64,000 nt of DNA, from positions 61,746,944 to 61,810,943 of the forward strand of contig CM026552.1 of the NCBI GenBank assembly GCA_015143295.1, given 5' to 3'. A model generated the notes under the pieces. The model was given only the letters and a program-made list of their open reading frames with translations, did no database searches and had not been told where the DNA came from. The position numbers were made by a program, and so were the translations under genes. Shown one piece after another: positions 5,797-30,556 of this stretch. This DNA comes from Tetracentron sinense (Eukaryota > Streptophyta > Magnoliopsida > Trochodendrales > Trochodendraceae). The first letter of the stretch is position 1; each line of letters starts with the position of its first letter.

Positions 5797-6320
5797 TGTA
5801 GAGCCCCGGACCTTTTCACATTTAATGCATGACACTTTCGTTTCCATTTTTTTCTTTTACAGAGAAATAATTAATAAATAAAGAAGAAGTTGGAAATTCC
5901 GAAACACCAGAAATGTTCATTTTCGAAGTACGAACCCAACGCAAGTTGAATCGTCAAAATCGGACGAACGAGTCAAAAGATATGGCCAAAACAGTCTGGA
6001 CCTGCAGGCAACCGATCGCTCGGTCCATAAAGCGATCGATCGGTCCAAAACCGATCGATCGGTAGCTATCGACTGGTCAAGATTTTTGTATGGGGAAATT
6101 TTCCAGAGAGTGAAATTTTAACCGATCGCTCGGTTATGAAACCGATCGATCGGTAGGCAACCGATCGATCGGTCATTAACACCGATCGCTCGGTACTCGC
6201 GTTTTTGCAGAAAATTTAGTAAGGGTGTTTTCGTCTTTTGGGCGTTTCACTCATACCTTAAAGGCTTTGCCCGATCATTTGAGGGTTCATACAGAACCCT
6301 TAGAGTCTTTTGAGAGATAG
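5797..6320 (+). mobile_element. 5' LTR of E, first part (U3 and start of leader)
   Basis: It matches 40268-40790 of E's 3' LTR almost base for base. It contains a conserved segment of about 85 bp (CGCAAGTTGAATCGTC ... GATATGGCC), the 3+4 palindrome array, and a TATA-like TTAAAGG near 6258. It is cut at 6320 by F; GATAG at 6316-6320 is F's left target duplication. Confidence 0.9.
6011..6194. repeat. 3+4 array of ACCGATCGATCGGT-type palindromes (E 5' LTR)
   Basis: Seven 14-bp sites start near 6011, 6031, 6050, 6121, 6141, 6160 and 6181. They alternate between the perfect palindrome ACCGATCGATCGGT and the variant ACCGATCGCTCGGT. A spacer at 6064-6120 containing TTTTTGTATGGGG and CCAGAGAG separates three from four. 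The same 3+4 layout and spacer occur in copia G and solo LTR H. It lies about 64 bp upstream of the TATA-like TTAAAGG. Confidence 0.92.
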
Positions 6321-6639
6321 TGTAGAGCCCCAGACTTTTTCATGCTTAATACATGACACTTTCGTTGTCATCTTGCCTTTTTAAGAGGTATGATTAATAA
6401 ATGAGGAAGAATTTGGAAATTTCGAAATGCCAGAATTGTTCCTCTTCGAAGTACGAACACAACGCAAGTTGAATCGTCAAAATCGGACGAACGAGTTAAA
6501 AGATATGGCCAAAACAGTCTGTACCTGTAGTAAAACGTATACTGTGTGCATCCGTTGTACAGCTCACCACGGGTACGTTGTACAACTCACCACGGGCACG
6601 CTGTACATGAGACGACGTGACAACGGGTTCGTCACGGGT

Positions 6640-7065
6640 TCGTCACCCTTGACAACGCCACCACGAGTTGCACTATTCACGCCACCACGAGTTGGCACTA
6701 TTCACGCCACCATGAGTTGCACTATTCACGCCACCACGAGTTGCACTATTCACGCCACCACGAGTTGGCACTATTCACGCCACCACGAGTTGGCACTATT
6801 CATGCCACCACGAGTTGGCACTATTCACGCCACCACGAGTTTGCACTATTCACGCCACCACGAGTTGGCATTATTCACGCCACCACGAGTTTGCACTATT
6901 CATGGCACCACGAGTTGCACTATTCACGCCACCACGAGTTGGCACTATTCACGCCACCACGAGTTGCACTATTCACGCCACCACGAGTTGGCACTATTCA
7001 TGGCACCACGAGTTGGCACTATTCACAGCACCACGAGTTGGCACTATTCACAGCACAATGTGTTC
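6640..7065. repeat. 24/25-bp minisatellite in F 5' LTR
   Basis: About 17 units of CACTATTCACGCCACCACGA plus GTTG or GTTGG/GTTTG are head to tail, with variants such as TTCATGGCACC. The 3' LTR copy (14420-14830) has the same units in a different order. It occupies the place where E carries the ACCGATCGATCGGT array. All three forward frames stay open for long stretches only because of the repeat, so the frames are not genes. Confidence 0.92.
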
Positions 7066-7494
7066 AGCACTATTCACGGTCCTCGCGTCATTGCAGAAAT
7101 CCCAGTAAGGGTATTACGGTCTTTTGGTCAGTTCACTCTTACCTTAAGAGTTTAACCCGAGCCTTTAGGGCTTCATTCGACACTTAGAGAGTTTGAGAGA
7201 ATAGGAGAAAGGGGAGAAGGCGATTCCAACCTAGGGTTTCCATTTTGGAGAGAAATCAAAGGGTTTTGAAACCCTAGATCAACCTCCAGCCCATTTTTCT
7301 TCAAGATCAAGGCACAAACTCGTGAGGAGCATCTCCTCAAACTAGGGCAGCAGCTACACAGTCGTTTTGGAAAGGGGTTTCTTCCTCATTTCTTCAAGGT
7401 CGGTACTTTTTACTACCCTCCTAGTTATAGTTCCTCTTTCCCCTTCTTTCCTCTTCATTTTCTTTCATTTACACATGTGCTATGAGATGGATGA

Positions 7495-7562
7495 ATGGTA
7501 AATAGTAAATGGTGAATGGTGAATGGTGAATGGTGAATGGTGAATGGTGAATGGTGAATGGA
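7495..7562. repeat. TGAATGG minisatellite in F 5' LTR
   Basis: A 7-bp unit (TGAATGG) is repeated about eight times after two TAAATGG-like units. Copy number differs among the F LTRs (compare 15270-15325 and 20700-20757); E's LTR has only two or three. It lies inside the candidate leader intron. Confidence 0.9.
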
Positions 7563-8039
7563 GATGGGATGGGCGATTGGATGCCAATGGTTGTGTGTGA
7601 TGAACAAATGGGGAAGGGCATTGTTCCAATAATGAACGTACATGTATGATTTGAGTAAAACCCATCTAGAAAAGCATGTTGTAGGATAAATCCATAATGA
7701 ACATACCATGTTTGATGAAATGCCAAGGTGAACACAGTGAGCTGAAAATCTGGAAATGCATGCCTAATAAATTATGAATATTGCTAGGGACTATGATAGT
7801 GTGTTTCCTGCTTTCCCATAATGCTATGAATATTACATTACTCAATCTTTGATGCTATATGTGTTGTGAAATTACCCAAATGTCATCTTTAAATTTGAAT
7901 GCAAGTATGTACACGGTTCCCACGAGCACGGCATGCATGGCATGATTTATCGAGGTTTTCAAGAACATGGTTAGAGGTGGGACATATCCTACGATATGTT
8001 TTACCTCGCTTTTCACAAGAAGACAAGAACCAACATTCC

Positions 8040-8200
8040 ACGAGGGGTCTCCCCTCACTCACAAGTGCATATCATGAAGAAGGGTCTCCCTTCCCTCGCA
8101 AGTGCATACATATCATAAAGAAGGGTCTCCCTTCCCTCGCAAGTGCATTGCATAAAGAAGGGTCTCCCTTCCCTCTCAAGGCATCTCACAAGTGCATCTC
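8040..8200. repeat. AAGGGTCTCCCTT self-complementary repeats (F 5' LTR)
   Basis: Three units of GAAGGGTCTCCCTTCCCTC, each followed by a CAAGTGCAT spacer, plus a diverged first unit. AAGGG and CCCTT can pair. E's LTR has the same core in a longer unit (17579-17800, 23050-23260, 41665-41880). Confidence 0.8.
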
Positions 8201-8527
8201 ACAAGTGCATCTCACAAGTTACATGATCACAAGCAAGCATGCATGACATGACATGACATACAAGAATCAAGCAAGATAGACAAGACAAGCTTTTACGTAC
8301 GAAAAGATATTTCAAGTCAAGTCAGGTGCACGATGTTTTCAAGAGGATTTATCGGTTTTCTACGAGTTTCAAGCATGATTATAAACTGCTTTACTTCCTT
8401 GTATGATATAAATTGTTTCCGTGTGACAAATATGAATTTCTCCTGATTATGTATTGCCATGTTTATGCTATAATTGTTGGTTAGTATTCAGTACCCGCTG
8501 AGTATTCCATGCTCAGCCGTACTTCTT

Positions 8528-8647
8528 ATGTCGGCAGGTTCTGAGGGAGCTGCTACTCCATTTGATGTTTGTGCTCCTGGTCCATGGGTGGAAGAGGAGT
8601 ATGTCGAGGAGCCTTTGGAGGAACCTCCAGTAGAGGGTTACCAATAG
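8528..8647 (+). CDS. Conserved small acidic LTR reading frame (39 codons), F 5' LTR
   Basis: The frame runs from ATGTCGGCAGG to TAG and encodes MSAG..., with PWVEEEYVEEPLEEPPVEGY near the end. Aligned with E's copy (23576-23695) there is no indel, and about six of the codon differences are synonymous. The peptide is strongly acidic with no membrane segment or known motif. If ATGTCGGCAG|G is instead a splice acceptor, the reading frame would be entered differently. Function unknown. Confidence 0.45.
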   Translation: MSAGSEGAATPFDVCAPGPWVEEEYVEEPLEEPPVEGYQ

Positions 8648-8937
8648 GTGGTTGTAGATTCTGAGTGGTTTAGCTGTGGGTGAGACGAGAGTCAGATTTA
8701 TGTATTTGGGCGGGCATGTCCGCACTTTCTTTTGGATTCTTTTTGTGTAAACTTGGATTGATTATGTATATACATAGAGGTTTGGTAGACTTCCGCTATG
8801 CCATGTTAGAGCATGTTTCCGCTGTTTTGTCCTCTATCGTATATGCTCTGTGGGTTTTGCAGGTTAGTTGTCAAGCAAGTCATGATTAGTCGTCCAAAGT
8901 TCACTCTAACTCCTAGGGTGGGTTTTGGGGCGCGACA

Positions 8938-9291
8938 GAAGTGGTACCAGAGCTTAGGCTTTAGGTCTCTAGGGTCACTTAGAATCTTATACCACGGCTT
9001 GACAAGAGCATATGTCAGGAAACAAGTTAGGAAGAAAGTAAGTCGGAAGAGAGTCTTGATCCAAGTGTAAGACTAAACTTTAGTCTTAGTCAAAATGATT
9101 GTTTCAACCAAGTACGAGCCTTAGGAACGCTAGAACACCAAAGTATAATATTATAAATACTCTGATGACTTAATGCGATGTATATTAGTATTATACAACT
9201 AATACAAATTGGATTATTGTGAAATGGCATTGAAGTAAACTGTGGTTTAAAGTTAGACTCATGTGGTGTTATTATTCTCAGGACTTGAGTC
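8938..9291 (+). promoter_or_regulatory. F primer binding site and untranslated leader
   Basis: TGGTACCAGAGC at 8942-8953 is a tRNA-Met primer site with one change from TGGTATCAGAGC. The leader continues to gag without a supported ORF. TTATTCTCAG|G at 9281/9282 is a splice-acceptor-like site ten bases before the gag ATG; E and A have equivalents. Confidence 0.8.
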
Positions 9292-10491
9292 ATGAGACGG
9301 AACACACGGGGTCGTGGACCACATACCAGAGCTTCCTCTTCTTCACGGGATGAGGATGAGCAGCCGGACCTCTCTCGAGTCTTAGGCTCTATTGCTGAGA
9401 CACTCGCCATACTGGCGGCTCGGCAGGCTATACCATCATCGGCGGCACCTACTCCACCGCCCGCAGCTCCAGTACATCGTACCGCTGGAGTTGAGGCATT
9501 CAGGAGATTGAGGCCTCCACCATTCCATGGGAGTGTGGACCCTCTTGCTGCGGAGGCATGGATCCTCCAGATGGAGAAGATCCTTACGGTCCTCTCACCT
9601 ACAGAGGAGGAGAGGGTAGCATGGGCAGCTTTCATGCTAGAAGGCGAAGCCCACCATTGGTGGTTGTCCGTACTGAGGACGAGAGATTTGACCATGCAGG
9701 GTCTACCTTGGACTTGGGAGGAGTTCAAGGATACTTTTTACAAAAAGTATTTTCCGATTGGAGCACGGGAAAAGAAAGAGAGAGAATTCATCAACCTTGA
9801 GCAAGGTTTGATGTCGGTTGCACAATACGAGGCCAAGTTCTCGGAGTTGTCGAGATTTGCGCCTCATATGGTTGCTACTGAGGCAATGAAGGCGAGGAGA
9901 TTTGAGCAAGGGCTCAAGGATGTGATTATGGAGAAGGTGTCCGTTTTCAGGCATACTACCTACCCTGAGGTAGTAGACAAGGCCTTATTGGTCAAGGCCA
10001 ATTCGGAGACAGTGTCCAAGAAGAGGGAGTGGGCGAGAGGCCAAGCTAGTAGTTCAGCACCTCCAGAGAGGCGGACTCGTTATCAGTATGCGTGGCCAGC
10101 ACCATCGATGAGGCCTTCTTATGCGCCTCCAGCTCCACGGCAGTATGTGCCTCAGGCACCGAGACCTCAGGCTCTTCCAGCCCCACGGCCTGTTGCACCT
10201 CAGACGATGAGGTATGCTCCGCTTCCAGCCCCTCCGACTTATACACACGAGGTCTGCACTTCATGCGGCAAAAGGCATCCGGCAGGAGATTGTCGAAGAG
10301 CATCTGGTGGATGTTATCATTGCGGTCGCCAGGGCCACATGATCAGGGATTGCCCCAGTCGGCATTTATCAGGCCAGTCTCAGGGGATTAGTCCACCAGC
10401 ACGCCCAGCAGGATCATATCAGGCGTCATCTCAGACTACCCGGTTACACCACAGTCTCGCCAGGCGAACCAGGGGCGAGTTTTTGCCTTGA
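9292..10491 (+). CDS. gag: Gag polyprotein of F (tail frameshifted)
   Basis: Gag forms the virus-like particle that packages the element RNA in the cytoplasm. The frame starts MRRNTRGRG, has the QVLGSIAETLAILAARQ-like N-terminal helix (SRVLGSIAETL), the capsid domain at about residues 95-215 (GEAHHWWLS, YKKYFPIGAREKKE, FEQGLK), a basic Pro/Ala-rich linker at about 240-315, and two knuckles, CTSCGKRHPAGDC (about 322) and CYHCGRQGHMIRDC (about 340). The start is chosen because E's gag begins identically and an acceptor-like CAG lies just upstream. A one-base deletion after 10444, relative to E, shifts the last ~16 residues of this frame. The correct frame would run to the intron donor at 10530. 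Confidence 0.88.
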   Translation: MRRNTRGRGPHTRASSSSRDEDEQPDLSRVLGSIAETLAILAARQAIPSSAAPTPPPAAPVHRTAGVEAFRRLRPPPFHGSVDPLAAEAWILQMEKILTVLSPTEEERVAWAAFMLEGEAHHWWLSVLRTRDLTMQGLPWTWEEFKDTFYKKYFPIGAREKKEREFINLEQGLMSVAQYEAKFSELSRFAPHMVATEAMKARRFEQGLKDVIMEKVSVFRHTTYPEVVDKALLVKANSETVSKKREWARGQASSSAPPERRTRYQYAWPAPSMRPSYAPPAPRQYVPQAPRPQALPAPRPVAPQTMRYAPLPAPPTYTHEVCTSCGKRHPAGDCRRASGGCYHCGRQGHMIRDCPSRHLSGQSQGISPPARPAGSYQASSQTTRLHHSLARRTRGEFLP

Positions 10492-10530
10492 CAGAGGGTG
10501 ATGCACTTGCATCTGACGATGTGGTGCAAG

Positions 10531-10674
10531 GTACGCGTTTGGAGTTATTTTCCTTATTCGTGATGGTTATGTTATGTTTTATCCCATGTGTACGTACTTG
10601 GTATGCTATATATGTATATACCTATGTGTATACACTGTTGATGCTTGAATTGACGTAACTAGCTAAAATTTCAG
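10531..10674 (+). other. Intron-like segment between gag and protease of F
   Basis: The segment begins CAAG|GTACGC and ends AAAATTTCAG|GAG, is AT-rich with stops in its frames, and is 144 bp. Removing it joins ...DDVVQ directly to G(A)LLVNE of the protease region in frame. E has a 148-bp counterpart with the same borders. It looks like a plant intron that controls gag versus gag-pol output; this is inferred, not shown by transcripts. Confidence 0.6.
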
Positions 10675-11183
10675 GAGCCCTACTAGTCAATGAGTGTTTG
10701 GCTCGAGTGTTGATTGATACCGGGTCTACTCATTCATTTGTCTCGCCGAGTTTTTCAGAAGGCTTTTCTGTAGAGCCAAGTCAGCTAGAACTGGAGTTAG
10801 CCATTTCGACTCCTCTCGGCAAAACAGTATTGGCAGATAAAGTGTATGGAGATAGTGTGGTCCAAGTTGGGAGCCACGAGTTGGCGGTTGATCTCATCGT
10901 CCTTGGATTCCAAGACTTTGATGTTATATTGGGAATGGATTGGTTAGCAGCACATCATGGGCATGTAGCTTGCTTTGAGAAAATGGTACTCTTCAAGCCG
11001 GTAGAAGGAAAACCATTTCACTTTCGAGGGTTGAGAAGTAGAGACATTGCCCGCTTTGCGGCGTTGAGCTTAGCTAACCCTGAAGCAAAGGACTCATCGA
11101 CTATTCCGGTTGTGAGTGAATTCCTGGATGTATTTCCAGAAGAGTTGCCAGGATTGCCTCAGATAGGGAGATTGAGTTTGTGA
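10675..11183 (+). CDS. pol: Protease and start of the RT region of F pol
   Basis: This is the retropepsin-like aspartic protease that cleaves the Gag-Pol precursor. The catalytic motif is [11 protein letters not shown] (Asp in DTG), with the second conserved block [11 protein letters not shown]. The continuous frame with an ATG begins at 10698, but the likely in-frame entry is the splice acceptor at 10675. The frame runs into [15 protein letters not shown], the usual lead-in to chromovirus RT, and then shifts: a one-base deletion near 11160 (CCTCAG versus CCTCCAG in E) ends it at 11183 and puts RT in another frame. Confidence 0.85.
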
Positions 11184-13999
11184 TCGAGCTTGCACCAGGC
11201 ACGGCTCCTGTTTTCAGAGCTCCATATAGAATGGCCCCTATTGAACTTAAGGAGTTGAAGACTCAGTTGGAGGAATTACAAGGCCTTGGTTTCATTCGAC
11301 CAAGTGTCTCACCGTGGGGTGCCCCGGTGTTGTTTGTTAAGAAGAAAGATGGCTCGATGCGGATGTGTGTCGATTACCGACAATTGAACAAAGTCACCAT
11401 AAAGAATAGGTATCCCTTGCCTAGGATTGATGACTTGTTCGATCAGTTGAAGGGAGCGAGATTTTTCTCGAAGATAGATCTTCGATCGGGTTATCACCAG
11501 TTGAAGATTAAGGTGGAAGATGTTCCCAAAACTGCTTTCAGGACTCGGTATGGGCACTACGAGTTCTTGGTGATGCCTTTTGGACTCACGAACGCGCCGG
11601 CAGCCTTTATGGATTTGATGAACCGGGTGTTCCGGCCATATCTTGATAGGTGCGTGATTGTATTTGTTGATGACATCTTGGTCTATTCCCAGACACGGGA
11701 AGATCACACACGCGACCTATGCCTTGCTTTGGAAATGCTAAGAGAACACAAGCTATACGCCAAACTTAGCAAGTGTGAGTTTTGGTTGGAAGAGGTGGCA
11801 TTCCTAGGCCACGTGGTTTCTGCAGAAGGTATCTCGGTGGATCCGAAGAAGATCGAAGCAGTTATGAGTTGGGCGAGGCCCAAGAGTGTTACCGAGATAC
11901 GCAGCTTTCTTGGGTTGGCAGGCTACTACAGGAGATTCGTAGAGGGTTTCTCTAGCCTTGCAGCACCGCTCACTTACCTGACAAGGAAGAATGCCAAGTT
12001 TGTATGGAGTGATAAGTGCGAGATCAGTTTCACGGAACTGAAGAAGAGGCTTACTACAGCTCCTGTCCTTACAGTGCCATCCGGACCTCTTGGGTATGAG
12101 GTGTACAGTGATGCCTCACACGTTGGACTTGGATGTGTGCTTATGCAACACAAGAAAGTCATTGCCTATGCATCAAGGCAATTGAAGGAGCATGAGAAGA
12201 ATTATCCCACGCACGACTTGGAGCTTGCGGCGGTCGTGTTTGCACTTAAGATTTGGCGTCATTACCTTTATGGGGTGGAGTTCTATGTGTTCACTGATCA
12301 CAAGAGTCTCAAGTATCTCTTTTCCCAAAAGGAGCTGAATCTAAGGCAACGGCGTTGGATGGAATTTTTGAAAGACTATGATTGTACCATTCAATACCAC
12401 CCGGGTAAAGCAAATGTAGTGGCAGATGCTTTGAGTAGAAGACCTCAAGGGTTGTTAGCACATATGTTGGTTCAAGAATGGAAGCTACTACAAGATTTGG
12501 CAAATCTGGACATCAGTGTGAATGACTCTGTCCGTGGTCCTACCTTGGCAAATGTTACGGTTCGGCCGTACATTATAGATTTGATCCAAGAATATCAAGA
12601 CATGGATGCTGAATTGTCGGCTTATCGGGACAAGGAAGTTGCTAAGGGTAGTGAGGACTTCTCTCTCACTAGTCGGGGTGCTATCACATTCAAAGGAAGG
12701 TTGTGTGTTCCGGCCAACGCAGATCTTCGACGAGAGATCATGGATGAGGCACATCGTTCGAAGTACACAGTGCATCCAGGGGGTACAAAGATGTACCGGA
12801 ACCTCAAGAGTCACTTTTGGTGGCGGAATATGAAGAGGGATGTTGCGGAATATGTAGCACGGTGCTTGGTGTGTCAACAAGTGAAAGCAGAACACATGCG
12901 ACCCGCCGGTCTATTGCATTCCCTTCCTATTCCCGAGTGGAAATGGGAGAACATATCCATGGATTTCATAGTTGGCTTGCCAAAGACGGCAAGGGGCTCA
13001 GATGCGATATGGGTAGTAGTGGATCGTTTGACAAAGTCCGCTCATTTCTTACCCTACCGTACTACCTTCAACTCTAGTCAGTTGGCTGCACTATATATCA
13101 AGGAAGTAGTTAGACTACATGGGGTGCCAGTCAGTATTGTGTCAGATCGGGATCCAAGATTCACGTCAAGATTTTGGAAAAGTTTCCAAGAGGCTATGGG
13201 TTCCCAACTTGATTTCAGCACCGCCTTTCATCCACAAACGGATGGACAAACCGAGAGAGTGAACCAAGTCATTGAAGACATGCTTCGAGCTTGTATGTTA
13301 GATTTCAGAGGCAGTTGGGAAGAGCACTTGCCTCTGGCTGAATTCGCTTATAATAACAGCTATCAGGCAAGTATTCAAATGGCACCATTTGAGGCCTTGT
13401 ATGGGCGAAGTTGTAGGTCTCCTCTCTATTGGGATGAGGTAGGAGAAAGGAAAGTGCTTGGTCCGGAGTTGATTGAGCAAACTGCAAACACAGTTAAGAT
13501 CATCCGGGATCGATTGAAAGCCGCTCAAGATCGCCAGAAAAGTTATGCGGACACACGCCGTAGGGACTTGGAATTTCAAGTAGGGGATCAAGTTTTTGTG
13601 AAAGTATCTCCTAGCAAAGGGATCATGAGATTTGGGAAGCGAGGCAAGCTCAGTCCTCGGTATGTTGGGCCTTTTGAGATTATCACACGGGTTGGTGAAG
13701 TTGCTTATCGAGTAGCTCTTCCACCTCACATGGCTGCAGTTCATAACGTCTTCCATGTGTCCATGCTTCGGAAGTATCTTGCGGATCCTTCGCATGTCAT
13801 AGACTTGGAACAGTTGGAGATTCGAGAGGACCTCACCTTGATTGAAAAGCCAGTCCAGATTTTAGATCGAAGGAATCAAGTGCTTCGCAACAAGACAATC
13901 CCTTTGGTTCTTGTGCAATGGCAACACCATGCTCGGGAAGAAGCTACATGGGAGCGTGAAGCCGAAGTCAAAGCAAAGTACCCAGAATTACTTGAATGA
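11180..13999 (+). CDS. pol: RT-RNase H-integrase-chromodomain part of F pol
   Basis: This 939-codon frame carries most of the replication enzymes. Reverse transcriptase spans about residues 1-270 (VDYRQLN near 65, catalytic FVDDIL near 163, [10 protein letters not shown]). RNase H follows ([10 protein letters not shown] near 309, [15 protein letters not shown] near 415). Integrase has an HHCC zinc region (about 523-570), catalytic Asp in MDFIVGLP (about 594), Asp in SDRDPRF (about 655) and Glu in QTERVNQ (about 691), then a GPFEIITR module (about 829). The C-terminus (890-933) is chromodomain-like ([15 protein letters not shown]), which marks a chromovirus; such domains steer integration toward particular chromatin. 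The apparent ATG at 11180 is created by the upstream frameshift. Confidence 0.92.
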
Positions 14000-14101
14000 G
14001 TTTCTGTGTGAAGTCTGTATATGACATGTAATGTTCTTTTTGAATTGTAATGCAAGTAGTGTCTGAATTTCGAGGACGAAATTTTTGTAAGGGGGGGAGG
14101 A
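14000..14101 (+). promoter_or_regulatory. 3' untranslated stretch and polypurine tract of F
   Basis: After the pol stop, the sequence TTTCGAGGACGAAATTTTTG is followed by GTAAGGGGGGGAGGA at 14087-14101, directly before the LTR start at 14102. E and the duplicated copy (before 19533) have the same block. Confidence 0.85.
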
Positions 14102-14419
14102 TGTAGAGCCCCAGACTTTTTCATGCATAATACATGACACTTTCGTTGTCATCTTGCCTTTTTAAGAGGTATGATTAATAAATGAGGAAGAATTTGGAAA
14201 TTTCGAAATGTCAGAATTGTTCCTCTTCGAAGTACGAACACAACGCAAGTTGAATCGTCAAAATCGGACGAACGAGTCAAAAGATATGGCCAAAACAGTC
14301 TGTACCTGTAGGAAAACGTATACTGTGTGCATCCGTTGTACAGCTCACCACGGGTACGTTGTACAACTCACCACGGGCACGCTGTACATGAGACGACGTG
14401 ACAACGGGTTCTTCACCCT

Positions 14420-14830
14420 TGACAACGCCACCACGAGTTACACTATTCACGCCACCACGAGTTGGCACTACTCACGCCACCACGAGTTGGCACTATTCAC
14501 GCCACCACGAGTTGCACTATTCACGCCACCACGAGTTGCACTATTCACGCCACCACGAGTTGGCACTATTCACGCCACCACGAGTTTGCACTATTCATGG
14601 CACCACGAGTTGCACTATTCACGCCACCACGAGTTACACTATTCACGCCACCACGAGTTGGCACTATTCATATCACCACGAGTTGGCACTATTCACGCCA
14701 CCACGAGTTGGCACTATTCACAGCCACCATGAGTTGCCACTATTCACAGCACCACGAGTTGGCACTATTCACGCCACCACGAGTTGGCACTATTCATGGC
14801 ACCACGAGTTGGCACTATTCACAGCACAAT
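14420..14830. repeat. 24/25-bp minisatellite in F 3' LTR
   Basis: The units are the same as at 6640-7065 but the order of the variants (GCACT, GTTACACT, CATATCACC, CACAGCCACC) differs, showing array turnover since insertion. The copy at 19850-20262 matches this order, so the duplicate derives from the 3' LTR. Confidence 0.9.
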
Positions 14831-16289
14831 GTGTTCAGCACTATTCACGGTCCTCGCGTCATTACAGAAATCCCAGTAAGGGTATTACGGTCTTTTGGTC
14901 AGTTCACTCTTACCTTAAGAGTTTAACCCGAGCCTTTAGGGCTTCATTCGACACTTAGAGAGTTTGAGAGAATAGGAGAAAGGGGAGAAGGCGATTCCAA
15001 CCTAGGGTTTCCATTTTGGAGAGAAATCAAAGGGTTTTGAAACCCTAGATCAACCTCCAGCCCATTTTTCTTCAAGATCAAGGCACAAACTCGTGAGGAG
15101 CATCTCCTCAAACTAGGGCAGCAGCTACACAGTCGTTTTGGAAAGGGGTTTCTTCCTCATTTCTTCAAGGTCGGTACTTTTACTACCCTCCTAGTTATAG
15201 TTCCTCTTTCCCCTTCTTTCCTCTTCATTTTCTTTCATTTACACATGTGCTATGAGATGGATGAATGATAAATAGTAAATGGTGAATGGTGAATGGTGAA
15301 TGGTGAATGGTGAATGGTGAATGGAGATGGGATGGGCGATTGGATGCCAATGGTTGTGTGTGATGAACAAATGGGGAAGGGCATTGTTCCAATAATGAAC
15401 GTACATGTATGAATTGAGTAAAACCCATCTAGAAAAGCATGTTGTAGGATAAATCCATAATGAACATACCATGTTTGATGAAATGCCAAGGTGAACACAG
15501 TGAGCTGAAAATCTGGAAATGCATGCCTAATAAATTATGAATATTGCTAGGGACTATGATAGTGTGTTTCCTGCTTTCCCATAATGCTATGAATATTACA
15601 TTACTCAATCTTTGATGCTATATGTGTTGTGAAATTACCCAAATGTCATCTTTAAATTTGAATGCAAGTATGTACACGGTTCCCACGAGCACGGCATGCA
15701 TGGCATGATTTATCGAGGTTTTCAAGAACATGGTTAGAGGTGGGACATATCCTACGATATGTTTTACCTCGCTTTTCACAAGAAGACAAGAACCAACATT
15801 CCACGAGGGGTCTCCCCTCACTCACAAGTGCATATCATGAAGAAGGGTCTCCCTTCCCTCGCAAGTGCATACATATCATAAAGAAGGGTCTCCCTTCCCT
15901 CGCAAGTGCATTGCATAAAGAAGGGTCTCCCTTCCCTCTCAAGGCATCTCACAAGTGCATCTCACAAGTGCATCTCACAAGTTACATGATCACAAGCAAG
16001 CATGCATGACATGACATGACATACAAGAATCAAGCAAGATAGACAAGACAAGCTTTACGTACGAAAAGATATTTCAAGTCAAGTCAGGTGCACGATGTTT
16101 TCAAGAGGATTTATCGGTTTTCTACGAGTTTCAAGCATGATTATAAACTGCTTTACTTCCTTGTATGATATAAATTGTTTCCGTGTGACAAATATGAATT
16201 TCTCCTGATTATGTATTGCCATGTTTATGCTATAATTGTTGGTTAGTATTCAGTACCCGCTGAGTATTCCATGCTCAGCCGTACTTCTT

Positions 16290-16409
16290 ATGTCGGCAGG
16301 TTCTGAGGGAGCTGCTACTCCATTTGATGTTTGTGCTCCTGGTCCATGGGTGGAAGAGGAGTATGTCGAGGAGCCTTTGGAGGAACCTCCAGTAGAGGGT
16401 TACCAATAG
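16290..16409 (+). CDS. Small acidic LTR reading frame, F 3' LTR copy
   Basis: The frame is the same as at 8528-8647, intact from MSAG to the TAG after VEGYQ. Confidence 0.4.
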   Translation: MSAGSEGAATPFDVCAPGPWVEEEYVEEPLEEPPVEGYQ

Positions 16410-16666
16410 GTGGTTGTAGATTCTGAGTGGTTTAGCTGTGGGTGAGACGAGAGTCAGATTTATGTATTTGGGCGGGCATGTCCGCACTTTCTTTTGGATT
16501 CTTTTGTGTAAACTTGGATTGATTATGTATATACATAGAGGTTTGGTAGACTTCCGCTATGCCATGTTAGAGCATGTTTCCGCTGTTTTGTCCTCTATCG
16601 TATATGCTCTGTGGGTTTTGCAGGTTAGTTCACTCTAACTCCTAGGGTGGGTTTTGGGGCGCGACA

Positions 16667-18292: not shown

Positions 18293-19430
18293 GGTGCTTA
18301 GTGTGTCAACAGGTGAAAGCAGAACACATGCGACCCGCCGGTCTATTGCATTCCCTTCCGATTCCCGAGTGGAAATGGGAGAAACATATCCATGGATTTC
18401 ATAGTTGGCTTGCCAAAGACGGCAAGGGGCTCAGATGCGATATGGGTAGTAGTGGATCGTTTGACAAAGTCCGCTCATTTCTTACCCTACCGTACTACCT
18501 TCAACTCTAGTCAGTTGGCTGCACTATATATCAAGGAAGTAGTTAGACTACATGGGGTGCACTGTCAGTATTGTGTCAGATCGGGATCCAAGATTCACGT
18601 CAAGATTTTGGAAAAGTTTCCAAGAGGCTATGGGTTCCCAACTTGATTTCAGCACCGCCTTTCATCCACAAACGGATGGACAAACCGAGAGAGTGAACCA
18701 AGTCATTGAAGACATGCTTCGAGCTTGTATGTTAGATTTCAGAGGCAGTTGGGAAGAGCACTTGCCTCTAGCTGAATTCGCTTATAATAACAGCTATCAG
18801 GCAAGTATTCAAATGGCACCATTTGAGGCCTTGTATGGGCGTAGTTGTAGGTCTCCTCTCTATTGGGATGCGGTAGGAGAAATGAAGTGTTTGGTCCGGA
18901 GTTGATGAGCAAACTGCAAACACAGTTAAGATCATCCGGGATCGATTGAAAGCCGCTCAAGATCGCCAGAAAGTTATGCGGACACACGCCGTAGGGACTT
19001 GGAATTTCAAGTAGGGGATCAAGTTTTTGTGAAAGTATCTCCTAGCAAAGGGATCATGAGATTTGGGAAGCGAGGCAAGCTCAGTCCTCGGTATGTTGGG
19101 CCTTTTGAGATTATCACACGGGTTGGTGAAGTTGCTTATCGAGTAGGTCTTCCACCTCACATGGCTGCAGTTCATAACGTCTTCCATGTGTCCATGCTTC
19201 GGAAGTATCTTGCGGATCCTTCGCATGTCATAGACTTGGAACAGTTGGAGATTCGAGAGGACCTCCCCTTGATTGAAAAGCCAGTCCAGATTTTAGATCG
19301 AAGGAATCAAGTGCTTCGCAACAAGACAATCCCTTTGGTTCTTTTGCAATGGCAACACCATGCTCGGGAAGAAGCTACATGGGAGCGTGAAGCCGAAGTC
19401 AAAGCAAAGTACCCAGAATTACTTGAATGA
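18289..19430 (+). pseudogene. pol: Duplicated, frameshifted integrase-chromodomain end of F pol
   Basis: It aligns with 12863-13999 of F, starting at the CLVCQQVK integrase zinc region. The frame is broken by several one-base changes: an extra base near 18384, an insertion in GGTGCACTGTC near 18560, losses near 18891 and 18907, and one near 18971. The chromodomain end is intact (from 18999). It has no start codon or upstream RT and cannot make a working enzyme. Confidence 0.9.
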
Positions 19431-19532
19431 GTTTCTGTGTGAAGTCTGTATATGACATGTAATGTTCTTTTTGAATTGTAATGCAAGTAGTGTCTGAATT
19501 TCGAGGACGAAATTTTTGTAAGGGGGGGAGGA
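19431..19532 (+). promoter_or_regulatory. Duplicated 3' untranslated stretch and polypurine tract
   Basis: It repeats 14000-14101, including GTAAGGGGGGGAGGA just before the LTR at 19533. Confidence 0.85.
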
Positions 19533-22131
19533 TGTAGAGCCCCAGACTTTTTCATGCATAATACATGACACTTTCGTTGTCATCTTGCCTTTTTAAGAGG
19601 TATGATTAATAAATGAGGAAGAATTTGGAAATTTCGAAATGTAGAATTGTTCCTCTTCGAAGTACGAACACAACGCAAGTTGAATCGTCAAAATCGGGAC
19701 GAACGAGTCAAAGATATGGCCAAAACAGTCTGTACCTGTAGGAAAACGTATACTGTGTGCATCCGTTGTACAGCTCACCACGGGTACGTTGTACAACTCA
19801 CCACGGGCACGCTGTACATGAGACGACGTGACAACGGGTTCTTCACCCTTGACAACGCCACCACGAGTTACACTATTCACGCCACCACGAGTTGGCACTA
19901 CTCACGCCACCACGAGTTGGCACTATTCACGCCACCACGAGTTGCACTATTCACGCCACCACGAGTTGCACTATTCACGCCACCACAAGTTGGCACTATT
20001 TACGCCACCACGAGTTTGCACTATTCATGGCACCACGAGTTGCACTATTCACGCCACCACGAGTTACACTATTCACGCCACCACGAGTTGGCACTATTCA
20101 TATCACCACGAGTTGGCACTATTCACGCCACCACGAGTTGGCACTATTCACAGCCACCATGAGTTGCCACTATTCACAGCATCACGAGTTGGCACTATTC
20201 ACGCCACCACGAGTTGGCACTATTCATGGCACCACGAGTTGGCACTATTCACAGCACAATGTGTTCAGCACTATTCACGGTCCTCGCGTCATTGCAGAAA
20301 TCCCAGTAAGGGTATTACGGTCTTTTGGTCAGTTCACTCTTACCTTAAGAGTTTAACCCGAGCCTTTAGGGCTTCATTCGACACTTAGAGAGTTTGAGAG
20401 AATAGGAGAAAGGGGAGAAGGCTATTCCAACCTAGGGTTTCCATTTTGGAGAGAAATCAAAGGGTTTTGAAACCCTAGATCAACCTCCAGCCCATTTTTC
20501 TTCAAGATCAAGGCACAAACTCGTGAGGAGCATCTCCTCAAACTAGGGCAGCAGCTACACAGTCGTTTTGGAAAGGGGTTTCTTCCTCATTTCTTCAAGG
20601 TCGGTACTTTTTACTACCCTCCTAGTTATAGTTCCTCTTTCCCCTTCTTTCCTCTTCATTTTCTTTCATTTACACATGTGCTATGAGATGGATGAATGGT
20701 AAATAGTAAATGGTAAATGGTGAATGGTGAATGGTGAATGGTGAATGGTGAATGGAGATGGGATGGGCGATTGGATGCCAATGGTTGTGTGTGATGAACA
20801 AATGGGGAAGGGCATTGTTCCAATAATGAACGTACATGTATGATTTGAGTAAAACCCATCTAGAAAAGCATGTTGTAGGATAAATCCATAATGAACATAC
20901 CATGTTTGATGAAATGCCAAGGTGAACACAGTGAGCTGAAAATCTGGAAATGCATGCCTAATAAATTATGAATATTGCTAGGGACTATGATAGTGTGTTT
21001 CCTGCTTTCCCATAATGCTATGAATATTACATTACTCAATCTTTGATGCTATATGTGTTGTGAAATTACCCAAATGTCATCTTTAAATTTGAATGCAAGT
21101 ATGTACACGGTTCCCACGAGCACGGCATGCATGGCATGATTTATCGAGGTTTTCAAGAACATGGTTAGAGGTGGGACATATCCTACGATATGTTTTACCT
21201 CGCTTTTCACAAGAAGACAAGAACCAACATTCCACGAGGGGTCTCCCCTCACTCACAAGTGCATATCATGAAGAAGGGTCTCCCTTCCCTCGCAAGTGCA
21301 TACATATCATAAAGAAGGGTCTCCCTTCCCTCGCAAGTGCATTGCATAAAGAAGGGTCTCCCTTCCCTCTCAAGGCATCTCACAAGTGCATCTCACAAGT
21401 GCATCTCACAAGTTACATGATCACAAGCAAGCATGCATGACATGACATGACATACAAGAATCAAGCAAGATAGACAAGACAAGCTTTTACGTACGAAAAG
21501 ATATTTCAAGTCAAGTCAGGTGCATGATGTTTTCAAGAGGATTTATCGGTTTTCTACGAGTTTCAAGCATGATTATAAACTGCTTTACTTCCTTGTATGA
21601 TATAAATTGTTTCCGTGTGACAAATATGAATTTCTCCTGATTATGTATTGCCATGTTTATGCTATAATTGTTGGTTAGTATTCAGTACCCGCTGAGTATT
21701 CCATGCTCAGCCGTACTTCTTATGTCGGCAGGTTCTGAGGGAGCTGCTACTCCATTTGATGTTTGTGCTCCTGGTCCATGGGTGGAAGAGGAGTATGTCG
21801 AGGAGCCTTTGGAAGAACCTCCAGTAGAGGGTTACCAATAGGTGGTTGTAGATTCTGAGTGGTTTAGCTGTGGGTGAGACGAGAGTCAGATTTATGTATT
21901 TGGGCGGGCATGTCCACACTTTCTTTTGGATTCTTTTTGTGTAAACTTGGATTGATTATGTATATACATAGAGGTTTGGTAGACTTCCGCTATGCCATGT
22001 TAGAGCATGTTTCCGCTGTTTTGTCCTCTATCGTATATGCTCTGTGGGTTTTGCAGGTTAGTTGTCAAGCAAGTCATGATTAGTCGTCCAAAGTTCACTC
22101 TAACTCCTAGGGTGGGTTTTGGGGCGCGACA
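19533..22131 (+). mobile_element. Second copy of the F 3' LTR (duplication)
   Basis: The 2599-bp LTR is near identical to 14102-16666 from about 19720 on, keeps the minisatellite order of the 3' LTR, lacks the ~35-bp deletion seen at 16627, and is again followed by GATAG and E LTR sequence. It is part of the tandem duplication rather than a separate insertion, because no independent target duplication is seen. Confidence 0.9.
21722..21841 (+). CDS. Small acidic LTR reading frame, duplicated F LTR copy
   Basis: It is identical in frame and length to the F copies, with one synonymous GAG/GAA change. Confidence 0.4.
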   Translation: MSAGSEGAATPFDVCAPGPWVEEEYVEEPLEEPPVEGYQ

Positions 22132-22325
22132 GATAGTGAGAAAGGAGAAGGGTTTCCAAAACCTAGGTTTTCATTTGGGAGAAATCAAAGGGGTTAAGAC
22201 CCTAGATCAACCCCAAGCCCGTGTTCTTCAAGATCAAGGCTCAAGCATTCGAGGAGCTCGTGATCCAAGCTAGGGCAGCAGCTACACGGTCGTTTTTGGA
22301 AGGGGTTTCTTCCTCATTGTTCAAG

Positions 22326-23585
22326 GTCGGTACTTCTTGCTACCCTCCTAGTTATAGTTCTTCCTTTCCTTTATTTTCTTTGTGTTCCCTTATACATCCA
22401 TGTATTATGAGATGGGTTGTGAATGGTGAATGGTGAATGATGAATGGAGATGAATGTGGGCGATTGGATGCCGTGTGTATTGATGTGATGGATGAACGGG
22501 GAGGGCATTGTACCCATAATAAACATACATATGTGATGTGAGTAAAATCCACCTAGAAAAGCATGTTGTAGGGTTAACAAATAATGAACACACTATGTTT
22601 GATGAGATGCCAAGGTGAATAAAATGAGTGATAAATTAAGGGAATACATGCTTAATTATTCATGAAATTGTTAGGGCATATGATAGTGTGTTTCTTACAT
22701 TTCTCAAAATGTGCGATTTATTACTTGTTCAAATCGTGATATGCTATGCTTTGTAAATTACCCAAATTGTCATATTTAATTCCAAATGCAAGTATGCACA
22801 CGATCTCACAAGCACGCATGCATGACATGGATTACCGACGTTTTTCAAGAATGGGATTTAGAGGTGGGGCATATCCTACGATATGTTTTACCTCGCTTTT
22901 GGCAAGGACAAGTCAATCATGCATTATCATAAGAAGGGCTTCCCTTCCCTCGCAAGTACATACATATCATAAGAAGGGCTTCCCTTCCCTCGCAAGTACA
23001 TCTCACAAGGACATCTCACAAGTGAAAGGACATGACATGAGCATTTAGAAAGAAGGGTCTCCCTTCCCTCACAAGTAGTTTACTCTTCCAAGCATGATAC
23101 AAGCATGGCATGACACGGCATGACAAGCATGAGCATTTTAGGAAGAAGGGTCTCCCTTCCCTCACAAGTAGATTACTTTTCCGAACAAGCAAGCATGATA
23201 CATGACATGACAAGCATGAGCATTTAGGAAGAAGGGTCTCCCTTCCCTCACAAGTAGTTTACTTTCCAAGCAAGCATGACATGGCATGACACGCATGATA
23301 TGATAAGATAAGACAACATGACAAGTTTCAAGCACGGAAAATGGTATTTCCAAATCAAGTCAAGTGCACAAGGTTTTCAAGGGTTTTAACGGCTTTCTAC
23401 GAAATACAAGCATGATTATAAATTGCTTTTACTTCCTTGTATGATATGAATTGTTTCCTTCTAACTTATAAGAATTGTTCCTGCTTTATGTATGCTATCT
23501 GTATGCTATGACTGTTGGTTAGTGCTTAGTACCCGCTTAGTATTCCATGCTCAGCCGTACTTCTTATGTCGGCAGGTGATGGCGG
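22326..23585 (+). other. Candidate leader intron within the E 5' LTR
   Basis: The borders are CAAG|GTCGGTAC and TTATGTCGGCAG|G, 1260 bp apart. The leader before the donor lacks ATG while the interior has many. The same borders are found in the 3' LTR (40981-42190). Confidence 0.45.
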
Positions 23586-23695
23586 AGCAGCTGCTCCATT
23601 TGATATCTGTGCTCCGAGCCCTTGGGTGGAGGAGGAGTACGTCGAGGAGCCTTTGGAGGAACCTCCCGTAGAGGGTTACCATTAGGTGGTTGTAG
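23576..23695 (+). CDS. Small acidic LTR reading frame, E 5' LTR
   Basis: It has 39 codons and encodes MSAGDGG...PFDICAPSPWVEEEYVEE... to VEGYH. Compared with F, changes include synonymous TAT/TAC, GAA/GAG and CCA/CCC and no indels, as expected for a translated frame. Function unknown. Confidence 0.45.
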
Positions 23696-23976
23696 ATTCT
23701 GAGTGTATAGCTGTGGGTGAGATGAGAGATATACATTCATGTATTTTGGCGGGTCTGTCCGCACTTTCTTTTGGTTACTTTTTGTATAAACTTGGATTTG
23801 CGTATGTATATTCATAGAGGTTTGGTTAGACTTCCGCTGTGTTTTATAGTTATGTTTCCGCTATATTGTCTTCTATGGTATATGCTCTGTGGGTTTTGCA
23901 GGTTGGTTGTCAAGCAAGTCATGATTAGTTGTCCAAAGTTCACTCTAACTCCTAGGGTGGGTTTTGGGGCGCGACA

Positions 23977-24336
23977 GAAGTGGTATCAGAGCTTCGGCTT
24001 TAGGTCTCTAGGGTCACTTAGAATCTTGTACCACGGGTTGCCAAGAGCATATGTTAGGAAACAAGTTAGGAAGGAAGTAAGTCGGAAGAGAGTCTTGATC
24101 CAAGTGTAAGACTAAACTTTAGTCTTAGTCCAAAATGGTTGCTTTAACCAAGTACGGTCCTAGGTACGCTAGAACGCTAAAGTATAAGTATAATGTGATG
24201 AATACTCTGATGACTTGATATAATGTATATTAGTATTATACAACTAATAAAAATTGAATTATTGTGAAACGATATTGAAATAAACTGTGGTTTTAAGTGA
24301 GACTCATGTGGTGCTATTGTTCTCAGGACTTTAGTC
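23977..24336 (+). promoter_or_regulatory. E primer binding site and leader
   Basis: TGGTATCAGAGC at 23981-23992 is the canonical tRNA-Met complement. The leader has no supported ORF. ATTGTTCTCAG|G at 24326/24327 is an acceptor-like site ten bases before the gag start. Confidence 0.88.
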
Positions 24337-25585
24337 ATGAGGCGGGGCACGCGGGGTCGTGGACCACACACCAGAGCTTCATCTTCTTCCAGAGATGAGG
24401 ATGAGCAGCCGGACCTCTCCCAGGTCTTAGGCTCTATTGCTGAGACACTCGCCATACTGGCGGCTCGGCAAACTATACCATCATCGGCGGCACCTACTCC
24501 ACCGCCCGTAGCTCCAGTACATCGTACCGCAGGAGTTGAGGCATTCAGGAGATTGAGGCCTCCATCCTTCCACGGGAGTGTGGACCCTCTTACTGCAGAG
24601 GCTTGGATCCTCTAGGTTGAGAAGATATTTGCGGTGCTCACTCCTACAGAGGAAGAGAAAGTGGCATGGGCAGTTTTTATGCTAGAGGACGAAGCCCACC
24701 ATTGGTGGTTGTCCGCATTGAGGACGCGAGACTTGACCATGCAAGGTCAACCTTGGACTTGGGAAGAGTTCAAAGATACTTTTTACAAGAAGTATTTTCC
24801 TATCGGTGCACGGGAAAAGAAAGAGAGAGAATTCATCAACCTTGAGCAAGGTTCGATGTCTGTGGCCGCTTATGAGGCCGAGTTCTCGGAGCTATCACGC
24901 TTCGCGACGCATATGATTGCCACCGAGGCAATGAAGGCGAGAAGATTTGAGCAAGGGCTCAAGGATGTTATTATGGAGAAGGTTTCCATTTTCAGGCATG
25001 CTACCTACCCTGAAGTGGTAGACAAGGCCTTATTGGTGGAGGCCAATTCTGAAGCGGTGTCTAAGAAGAGAGAGTTGGCAAGAGGCCAAGCCAGTAGTTC
25101 AGCACCTCCAGAGAGGCGGGCTCGTACCGGCCCTTATCAGTATACATGGCCAGCACCACAGATGAGGCCGACTTATGCGCCTCCAGCCCCACGGCAGTAC
25201 GTGCCACAGGCACCTCGACCTCAGGCTCTTCCGGCCTCTCGACCAGTTACACCTCAGGCAGCGAGGTATACACCACCTTCGGCCCCTCCGGCCTACACAT
25301 ATGAGGTCTGCACTTCATGCGGCAAAAGGCATCTGGTAGGAGATTGCCGAAGAGCATCTGGTGGATGTTATCATTGCGGTCGCCAGGGCCACATGATCAG
25401 GGATTGCCCTACCCGGCATTTGCCAGGCCAGTCTCAGGGGATTAGTCCACCAGCACGCCCAGCAGGATCATATCAGGCATCATCTCAGACTAACCGGTCT
25501 ACACCTCAGTCTCGCCAGGCAAACCAGGGGCGAGTTTTTGCCTTGACAGAGGGTGATGCACTTGCATCTGACGATGTAGTGCAAG
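24337..25585 (+). pseudogene. gag: Gag of E, interrupted by one nonsense codon
   Basis: It is collinear with F gag: MRRGTRGRG start, SQVLGSIAETLAILAARQ, capsid block (DEAHHWWLS, YKKYFPIGAREKKE, FEQGLK), Pro/Ala-rich linker, and knuckles CTSCGKRHLVGDC and CYHCGRQGHMIRDC. A TAG at 24613-24615 replaces the Gln codon present in F (CTCCAG to CTCTAG), splitting the frame into 24337-24615 and a downstream piece with an ATG at 24634. Unlike F, the gag tail is in frame up to the intron donor (DDVVQ at 25585). Confidence 0.9.
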
Positions 25586-25733
25586 GTACGCAGTTGTAGC
25601 TTATTTAATTATCTGTAAATTAAACTGTTAAGTATTCATTGATTTTGTACATACTTGGCATGTTATATAGGTATATATACCTACATGTATACACTGTTGA
25701 TGCATGGATTAACTCCGCTAGTTAAAATTTCAG
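25586..25733 (+). other. Intron-like segment between gag and protease of E
   Basis: The borders are CAAG|GTACGC and AAAATTTCAG|GAAC. It is 148 bp, AT-rich, and contains stops in the gag frame (GTTGTAG). Removal gives an exact in-frame VVQ-G-TLLVNE junction. Because E's gag tail is intact, this copy shows frame restoration most clearly. Confidence 0.65.
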
Positions 25734-27306
25734 GAACCCTACTAGTCAATGAGTATTTGGCTCGAGTGTTGATTGATACCGGGTCTACTCATTCATTTGT
25801 CTCGCCGAGTTTTTCAGAAGGCTTTTCTGTAGAGCCAAGTCAGCTAGAACCGGAGTTAGCCATTTCGACTCCCCTCGGCAAAACAGTATTGGCAGATAAA
25901 GTGTATAGAAATAGTGTGGTCCAAGTTGGAAGCCACGAGTTGGCGGTTGATCTCATCGTCCTTGGATTCCAAGACTTTGATGTTATATTGGGAATGGATT
26001 GGTTAACAGCGCATCATGGGCATGTAGCTTGCTTTGAGAAGATGGTACTCTTCAAGCCGGTAGAAGGAAAACCATTTCACTTTCGGGGGTTGAAAGGTAG
26101 ATGTATTGCTCGTTTTGCGGCGTTGAGCTTAGCTAACCCCGAGGCAAAGGACTCATCGACTATTCCGGTTGTGAGTGAATTCCTGGATGTATTTCCAGAG
26201 GAGTTGCCAGGATTACCTCCAGACAGGGAGATTGAGCTTGCACCAGGCACAACTCCTATATTCAGGGTTCCGTATAGAATGGCTCCGATTGAACTCAAGG
26301 AGTTAAAGACTCAGTTGGAGGAATTACAAGGCCTTGGTTTCATTCGACCAAGTGTCTCACCGTGGGGTGCCCCGGTGTTGTTTGTTAAGAAGAAAGATGG
26401 TTCGATGCGGATGTGCGTCGATTACCGGCAATTGAACAAGGTCACTATAAAGAATAGGTATCCATTGCCTAGAATTGTTGATTTGTTCGATCAATTGAAA
26501 GGAGCGAGATTTTTCTCGAAGATAGATCTTCGATCGGGTTATCACCAGTTAAAGATTAAGGTGGAAGATGTTCCCAAAACTGCTTTCAGGACTCGATATG
26601 GGCACTATGAGTTCTTGGTGATGCCTTTTGGTCTACGAACGCGCTGGCAGCCTTTATGGATTTGATGAACCGGGTGTTCCGACCATACCTAGATCGGTGC
26701 GTGATTGTATTTGTTGATGACATTTTGGTCTATTCCCAGACACGGGAAAATCACACACGCGATCTACGTCTTGCTTTGGAAATGCTAAGAGAGCACAAGC
26801 TATATGCCAAACTTAGCAAGTGTGAGTTTTGGCTCGAAGAGGTGGCATTCCTAGGCCATGTTGTTTCCGCGGAAGGCATCTCCGTTGATCCGAAGAAGAT
26901 AGAAGCTGTTATGAGTTGGGCGAGGCCCAAGAGTGTTACTGAGATACGTAGCTTTCTTGGGCTGGCAGGCTACTACAGGAGATTCGTAGAGGGTTTCTCT
27001 AGCCTTGCAGCATCGCTTACTCACCTGACAAGGAAGAATGCGAAGTTTGTTTGGAGCGACAAGTGCGAGATCAGTTTCACGGAACTGAAGAAGAGGCTTA
27101 CTACAGCCCCTGTCCTTACTGTGCCATCTGGACCTTATGGGTATGAGGTGTATAGTGATGCCTCACACGTTGGACTTGGATGTGTGCTTATGCAACACAA
27201 GAAGGTCATTGCCTATGCATCAAGGCAATTGAAGGAGCATGAGAAGAATTATCCCACGCACGACTTGAGCTTGCGGCAGTCGTGTTTGCACTTAAGATTT
27301 GGCGTC
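25734..27306 (+). pseudogene. pol: Proximal pol of E: protease, RT and part of RNase H
   Basis: Protease ([19 protein letters not shown]) runs directly into RT (VDYRQLN, catalytic FVDDIL near 26718), and here the protease-RT junction that is shifted in F is in frame. The frame is broken by a one-base loss near 26633 (GGTCTACG versus GGACTCACG in F) and another near 27266. RNase H is cut after LRFGV by the insertion of G; GCGTC at 27302-27306 is duplicated at 38379-38383. Confidence 0.9.
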
Positions 27307-27982
27307 TGAAATTTATCCAGATCAATGATCTCTAAGACCTAGAGGGGGGGTGAATAGGTCTATCTAATAATTTCTAACCAATTTTAATTTTTCAATTAAT
27401 ATGTTTAGAAATCAATGATTAATTCAATCAGACAATCCACACAAATCAAACACAGAAGATTTTTACGTGGAAAACCCTAACGGGAAAAAACCACGGGACC
27501 TTGTCCACTAATAAACTTCACTATAAAAAGATATCAAGTACAAGACAAGACCTTACCAAAACAGAAACGACGTTCCTAGGTATAGACTCTTACTCTTGAT
27601 TTCCACGAACCAGCAGGTTCGATCTCCGCCTTAGCAGCTTCGGTTCCACACCGACCAAATCTTTTCAAGCGACTTCAAATCCACGATCACACACGATCGA
27701 TCTCCTTCCACGAAGGCTCCGGATCAAACACCGGACACACACAAGGTGTAGGGTTGTGAATCAATTTAGTAAATTTTCAAACCCTAGAGGGATCTCATAC
27801 AGATCTGAGATCACACAATGCAAGATCAAAGATTTAGATCTATACTTGCATTCTCTAGGATCTTAGAAAGAGGAGAGATCAACAAAGATCTAATAAAAGC
27901 AATAAGAAAAACCCTAGAAGAGTTTCTCAGACCTCTACTCTTTCAAAAATATCAAAGACACGAATTAGGTCTCTCAAAAGTT

Positions 27983-27991
27983 GTTTATATA
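27983..27991 (-). promoter_or_regulatory. TATA box of G 3' LTR
   Basis: TATATAAAC on the - strand lies 45 bp downstream of the palindrome array in the element's sense. The 5' LTR copy, which would drive the element, is at 37827-37835. Confidence 0.6.
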
Positions 27992-28036
27992 GGGTTAAAA
28001 AAAGAATCCAGAAAAAGAAAAATTCTTTTTACGGGG

Positions 28037-28221
28037 ACCGATCGATCGGTGCTCACTACCGATCGCTCGGTCCAAAACGGATCGATCGGTTCTAATGACC
28101 GATCGCTCAGTTCTAAATCACCTCTCTGGAAAATTTCCCCATACAAATATTTGGTCCAGTCGATAGCCACCGATCGCTCGGTAGGCCACCGATCGATCGG
28201 TCTCAATACCGAGCGATCGGT
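28037..28221. repeat. 3+4 palindrome array in G 3' LTR
   Basis: Sites start at 28037, 28058, 28077, 28098, 28169, 28188 and 28208. In G's sense there are three sites, a spacer with CGACTGGACC, TTTGTATGGGG and CCAGAGAG, then four sites, the same order and spacing as in gypsy E. This is direct sequence sharing between two retrotransposon superfamilies. Confidence 0.92.
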
Positions 28222-30544: not shown

Positions 30545-30556
30545 ACACTGTTCACG

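Follow-up and report, generated by a model that had tools for sequence, protein, structure and literature searches.

How do retrotransposons of two superfamilies, Ty1/copia and Ty3/gypsy, come to carry the same array of palindromes in their long terminal repeats (LTRs)? The question is raised by a 64,000-bp stretch of the Tetracentron sinense genome (assembly GCA_015143295.1, contig CM026552.1, forward-strand positions 61,746,944 to 61,810,943), here called the window, which consists of nested LTR retrotransposons. A module of about 184 bp is common to the LTRs of gypsy elements E and H and of copia element G. It comprises seven 14-bp palindromes, ACCGATCGATCGGT, split three and four around a 57-bp spacer. 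This palindrome is matched 34 times in the window with up to two mismatches, a number reached by none of 100 shuffles, against 0.07 matches expected. In the 5' LTR of gypsy E the module occupies 6011..6194 on the plus strand, with palindromes at 6011, 6031 and 6050, then at 6121, 6141, 6160 and 6181; the spacer (6064..6120, plus strand) starts with AGCTATCGACTGG, perhaps a decayed palindrome, and has the core TTTGTATGGGGAAATTTTCCAGAGAG. The module recurs in the 3' LTR of E (40482..40665, plus strand) and, on the minus strand, in the 3' and 5' LTRs of copia G (28037..28221 and 37881..38065) and in the LTR of gypsy H (46986..47171). A preliminary description had reported seven-palindrome arrays at these five places, and all were found, alike in order, spacing and orientation relative to their own element (gypsy E on the plus strand, copia G on the minus strand). 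Only three of them are independent, however: gypsy E contributes both of its LTRs, as does copia G, and the H array sits in a single LTR piece (about 46806-47304), roughly 80% like E, with partly decayed palindromes.

Alignment of E and G extended over 189 bp at 78.8% identity and broke off at the outermost palindromes. The palindromes were identical at 90 of 98 positions and the spacer at 48 of 57, whereas the five linkers agreed at only 8 of 30 positions, although their lengths stayed within one base. For the 150-bp flanks, 1000 shuffles on each side gave p 0.34 upstream and p 0.027 downstream; a downstream trace of similarity is possible. Spacer similarity between E and G, E and H, and H and G was matched by none of 2000 dinucleotide shuffles. 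The modules are homologous, and the earlier claim that two superfamilies share one is borne out. Of 32 modules that were cut out, 23 passed a filter (all seven sites with at most five mismatches, spacing within 2 bp of that in E), giving 19 gypsy modules to be compared with four copia modules. Gypsy-copia identity was 0.892 in the palindromes and 0.797 in the spacer (0.537 after shuffling), against 0.338 in the linkers (shuffled 0.346); the 60-bp flanks gave 0.561 and 0.571 (upstream shuffled 0.533). The inner palindromes were 71 bp apart in 29 of the 32 modules, and in 100 of 123 pairs of adjacent sites a loose scan gave a distance of 19-21 bp. Palindromes, spacer and spacing have been kept between gypsy and copia, while the linkers are at the shuffled level. 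The unrelated linkers, and flanks with at most a trace of similarity, rule out that an entire LTR segment was copied recently.

We then searched the whole 1.161-Gb assembly (1479 contigs). The exact palindrome ACCGATCGATCGGT occurred 30,033 times, its reversed control three times. A spacer pattern allowing three mismatches was found 11,215 times (5651 + 5564), with no match to the reversed control, and of the 100 exact spacer matches that head the listing, 35 had the copia-type variant when read by eye. The loci were sampled from the first 50 listed palindrome sites, a non-random set from the first 18.5 Mb of contig C1, which formed 29 clusters and were reduced to 26 loci with one module per locus; the clusters left out were one at the end of locus L008 adjoining a gypsy LTR, the ENV-proximal palindrome of the L013 copia, and the cluster at 2459120. 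The spacer module was present in 25 of the 26 loci, in 22 cases within a gypsy-type LTR and in three within a copia G LTR (L013, L024 and L025, the last assigned by eye and with a spacer one base short). This result rules out a generic satellite, in agreement with the preliminary description. The gypsy carriers fall into at least two LTR groups, one E-like and the other having 81% pol identity to gypsy F of the window (L006) and an unrelated downstream LTR part. By extrapolation, thousands of gypsy LTRs would carry the module. In L016 (4533-4610) we observed palindromes only, two to three of them CGATCGATCGG-like, in a stretch rich in tandem repeats without spacer or LTR match.

Each palindrome has two half-sites, which read either ACCGAT or ACCGAG. 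In the genome, palindromes with two ACCGAT halves numbered 30,033 and those with a single weak half 44,939, whereas only 23 had two ACCGAG halves, compared with about 6,700 that simple arithmetic predicts from independent halves. Among 217 sites of the sampled modules, 96 were double-strong, 106 single-weak and none double-weak, 13 being lost and two of another kind. The depletion is strong, and it matches what would be expected of a dimer for which one good half is the minimum. The earlier suggestion that a dimeric protein would be a natural reader gains from the way the sites behave like a two-half-site motif.

What kind of element is copia G? It lies on the minus strand at 27307..38378, nested in gypsy E, with LTRs at about 27307-28534 and 37150-38378 (99.3% identical) flanked by the 5-bp target duplication GCGTC (27302-27306 and 38379-38383). 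Its gag, rve and RVT_2 domains lie in one frame of a single gag-pol open reading frame (ORF) of 1782 aa (31767..37115, minus strand), the Ty1/copia arrangement. A 481-aa part of the pol had its best match at 69% (Xanthoceras), with many others at about 60-65%. Features of Sireviruses are also found: a primer binding site, TATCAGAGC, five bases beyond the end of the 5' LTR; a polyC integrase signal close to the 3' end of the LTR, read by eye as a C run, CACCCCCCCTC, some 37 bp short of that end; and the cluster of seven palindromes followed 45 bp further by a TATA-like box, TATATAAA (27984..27991, minus strand), at an equal offset in the other LTR and in four of four copia G LTRs. Sireviruses have multiple identical polypurine tracts (PPTs); in G, one PPT-like sequence, AAAGGGGGAGA, lies ahead of the 3' LTR. 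An ORF of 442 aa in the position of ENV (29047..30375, minus strand) matches Pfam Transposase_32, but its homology to Sirevirus ENV was unsupported by the homologue search. It is preceded by two good palindromes and a weak one; the pair, followed by TTATAAAACCC (30561..30595, minus strand), was absent from the preliminary description. Copia G thus fits the Sirevirus features tested. Palindromic repeated motifs (RM) were described by Bousios et al. in 2010 in Sirevirus LTRs, before the TATA box and again before ENV (PMC2829016). In the passages of that paper drawn on here, they are family-specific CG-rich palindromes, with at least eight per element, most of which lie in the upper LTR half; they were termed Sirevirus-specific since the classic Ty1/copia elements compared are without them, and they correspond, as database matches, mainly to sites of stress-related plant factors. 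From its sequence, the module appears to be such a repeated motif cluster. It resembles the RM boxes in being made of CG-rich palindromes located before a TATA box; in G, extra copies precede the ENV-position ORF. Unlike them, the palindromes of G and E have a CCG..CGG core with a GATCGATC centre in place of the CGG-CCG signature, and the G core is nearer to the published exception, the Tnd-1 motif (PMC2829016, same passages). To the RM boxes as published, a conserved spacer and a fixed geometry are added here; and the motif is not confined to Sireviruses, 22 of the 26 sampled loci being in gypsy-type LTRs.

Since palindrome clusters are a known Sirevirus hallmark and G is Sirevirus-like, a Sirevirus is the likely source. 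A related module is present in another Sirevirus-like element of the window, J (55062..55177, minus strand), where two copies of CGGTCGACCG, identical to a published Vitis Sirevirus motif, and two of GGGTCGACCC stand around a similar spacer (55128-55153); the similarity of this spacer to those of E and G was matched in 0 of 2000 shuffles, and its similarity to that of H had p 0.0045. Locus L029 holds a Sirevirus-like copia whose pol resembles that of G at 76-86% in two pieces, and its module has GGTCGACC-type palindromes; 16 further LTRs of its family (of 40 scored) have an equal site order, a variable spacer, and cores that are mostly, not only, GGTCGACC. The linkers of G and of these sister Sireviruses agree above the shuffled level (0.495 against 0.409, e.g. 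GGCCT), so the G lineage seems to have altered its palindromes where they stood, with symmetrical changes at all seven. As the switch from GGTCGACC to GATCGATC also turns C into T within a CCG, mutation bias could help it along. Linkers of E-type gypsy modules, on the other hand, are at the shuffled level against G (0.336, shuffled 0.346), the sister Sireviruses (0.384, shuffled 0.383) and K (0.288, shuffled 0.296). K is a second chromovirus-like gypsy family, with LTR match pairs about 7.1 kb apart and a module with GGTCGACC cores; its copy L049 encodes RVT_1, an aspartyl protease (RVP_2) and an integrase zinc domain (H2C2). A gag piece near the K-type module of L019 was dropped as a classifier because it lies before another element's LTR, and L049 was used. 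Three of the eight sampled K copies (L050, L052 and L055) show ATCGAT or GATCGATC-like sites and no GTCGAC cores, replacing GGTCGACC within one LTR family. E-type gypsy and G have in common the ATCGAT core, CTATCGACTGG, and a shorter gap ahead of the spacer core; at the CTATCGACTGG position, a palindrome can still be recognised in most of the sister-family and K copies sampled and shown. The spacer core of E-type gypsy is nearer to that of G (0.823) than to those of K (0.707) or the sister Sireviruses (0.677).

Trees were built from 19 gypsy, four copia G, 17 sister and eight K modules together with J, eight gypsy modules with lost sites being left out; the root rests on J and K, as a three-group split of gypsy plus G against the sister Sireviruses shows only that the latter are monophyletic. 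With all columns, palindromes included, E-type gypsy and G were grouped against the rest with supports of 97.8/99. We consider a capture from a Sirevirus to a chromovirus, out of the stem of the G lineage, as most likely and hold it with moderate confidence. The preliminary description had offered movement between elements or a common source; these two options narrow to such a capture as the best-supported reading. The known Sirevirus hallmark had been missed. The possibility that copia G took the array as a block from gypsy was not upheld once the sister Sireviruses were added, and the linker similarity between G and its sisters speaks against it. With K taken into account, gypsy made either two captures or one with parallel switching.

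Taken together, we favour, at somewhat better than even probability, a Sirevirus origin for the array, its capture by chromoviruses, and a promoter-proximal role in which a dimeric factor reads it. In Sireviruses it would have its home shortly before the TATA box, with palindromes in copia G also ahead of the ENV-position gene, and a chromovirus lineage would have taken it in one piece from the G-lineage stem. A dimeric factor would bind each palindrome through the half-site ACCGAT, or the weaker ACCGAG, on sites about two helical turns apart; the conserved spacer is probably bound by further proteins, and the bound array may drive or de-repress LTR transcription. In gypsy, a TATA-like box, TATAAATA, lies 64-65 bp past the module in 10 of 22 rows, all of the LTR group with 81% pol identity to F. 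The position upstream of TATA in the copia LTR, before the ENV-position gene and in this gypsy group, the regular spacing and the half-site behaviour all point to a cooperative dimer near the core promoter. A host factor fits best as the putative reader because published Sireviruses without ENV (PMC2829016, in part) and gypsy elements both keep the sites; it is more likely than a protein of a transposable element (TE). We put forward only tentatively a wider view, in which Sireviruses and gypsy families of one plant would follow one trans-acting reader in one common cis-regulatory language, their palindromes switching in parallel, symmetrically and at every site together, from GGTCGACC to GATCGATC and gypsy joining by repeated capture of Sirevirus modules.

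Several observations weigh against the array as a captured, protein-read promoter element. With the pattern used, no TATA box was found within 180 bp of the module in 12 of the 22 gypsy rows, E and H included. The depletion of double-weak half-sites is no formal test, as the copies share descent. When the palindromes were masked (98 columns), the grouping of E with G was not recovered, though not rejected either (p-AU, approximately unbiased test, 0.58), and monophyly of all gypsy modules was not rejected (p-AU 0.17 masked, 0.27 with all columns). An earlier tree of 28 modules had placed copia G inside gypsy (91/85). The p-AU results make the capture count less firm and, more mildly, the direction too. 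The non-rejected monophyly would also suit a scenario in which an older GGTCGACC module was captured once by gypsy, the palindromes of gypsy and G switching later in parallel under the same reader, as the K LTR illustrates in having the GGTCGACC form, yet ATCGAT and no GTCGAC in three of eight sampled copies. We regard this as rather unlikely, as the E-type spacer core is closest to that of G, and E-type gypsy and G share CTATCGACTGG and the shorter gap before the core.

Both arrays also fold strongly as predicted RNA (z -6.9 and -6.5), which raises a somewhat less probable alternative: the palindromes could be RNA or DNA hairpins serving as a small-RNA source, silencing target or packaging signal rather than protein sites. 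Maize Sirevirus palindromes are indeed reported as small-RNA hotspots (PMC5311732, in a passage citing Bousios 2016). However, such z-scores are expected, since identical palindromes of any kind fold well, and hairpins would need neither the regular spacing nor the 71-bp gap, nor a TATA box close by in copia, a conserved non-palindromic spacer or a scarcity of double-weak sites. The dimer, if there is one, might instead be the Sirevirus ENV-position protein itself, gypsy then parasitising a Sirevirus activator or anti-silencer by analogy with VANC of VANDAL DNA transposons. Palindromes and a TATA-like box precede the ENV-position gene, and its 95 scored genomic copies are 94-100% identical, 70 of them without stops. 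The protein contains a PKRRRLV stretch, and a long C-terminal helix is predicted in a single-sequence model, but the model is too poor to use (pLDDT 40), Pfam gave no DNA-binding domain, and no homologue was found at E <= 0.001. ENV and linker motifs co-occur in published Sireviruses, whereas elements without ENV retain the LTR motifs (both from the passages of PMC2829016 drawn on here), and element J has no match to the protein at E 1e-5. We judge this alternative improbable. Convergence, with a single host factor having led unrelated LTRs to the array separately, is the least credible. The linkers are unrelated between gypsy and copia, and in the gypsy-like family P different CG palindromes occur but the module spacer does not; against this stand the spacer, 57 bp long in both and 84% identical, the same 3+4 split and the same 71-bp gap.

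Gypsy E, which is chromovirus-like, spans 5797..42591 on the plus strand, with its 3' LTR at 40268-42591; gypsy F breaks into it at 6320 and copia G at 27306. Gypsy F occupies about 6321-22131, with target duplication GATAG; it contains RVT_1 and rve and a Chromo match slightly under the curated cut-off (23.5 versus 25.1 bits), and its body is 89% like that of E over 4 kb. The F region has the order LTR, body, LTR, partial body, LTR, with 12857-16630 repeated at 18289-22063 at 99.1% identity, as if rearranged through recombination between copies. The F LTRs contain a 25-bp minisatellite with the unit ACGCCACCACGAGTTGGCACTATTC at 6655-7078, 14425-14849 and 19855-20279; the first (6655..7078, plus strand, 17 copies) occupies the position of the palindrome module of E. 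The LTR is like that of E on both sides, so a block has been exchanged at this place. In family P (1992-2206 and 44555-44752; gag match at 2890-3906), whose gypsy-like LTR starts with TGTAGCGCCCCG, there are several palindromes of a different type, GACGATCGATCGTC, at a comparable place in the LTR.

Known systems offer partial parallels. As in the U3 region of Tnt1, a regulatory block evolves apart from the coding regions; the modular evolution described there, in the passages at hand, stays within the copia superfamily (PMC1838419), whereas here it crosses Ty1/copia and Ty3/gypsy. VANC anti-silencing of VANDAL transposons likewise involves short motifs arrayed in the non-coding DNA of TEs, which differ between related elements in step with a reader; that reader is TE-encoded and its targets form tandem repeats, according to the parts of the source used here (PMC5735166), while for the present array the reader is putative. 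That chromovirus LTRs widely carry a motif called Sirevirus-specific is new, and among the literature matches listed, mostly open access, no title or abstract opening mentions a Sirevirus motif or an equal module in gypsy LTRs. The module provides a concrete case of regulatory-module capture across the two superfamilies, in a genome where the spacer is matched about eleven thousand times. Sirevirus palindromes were published in 2010, in passages that name no reader and give no tested function (PMC2829016, in part). Here, sites retained while the intervening bases drifted to randomness amount to a natural mutagenesis of the bases, spacings and half-sites that matter, and the existence of two palindrome versions renders the search for the reader directly testable.

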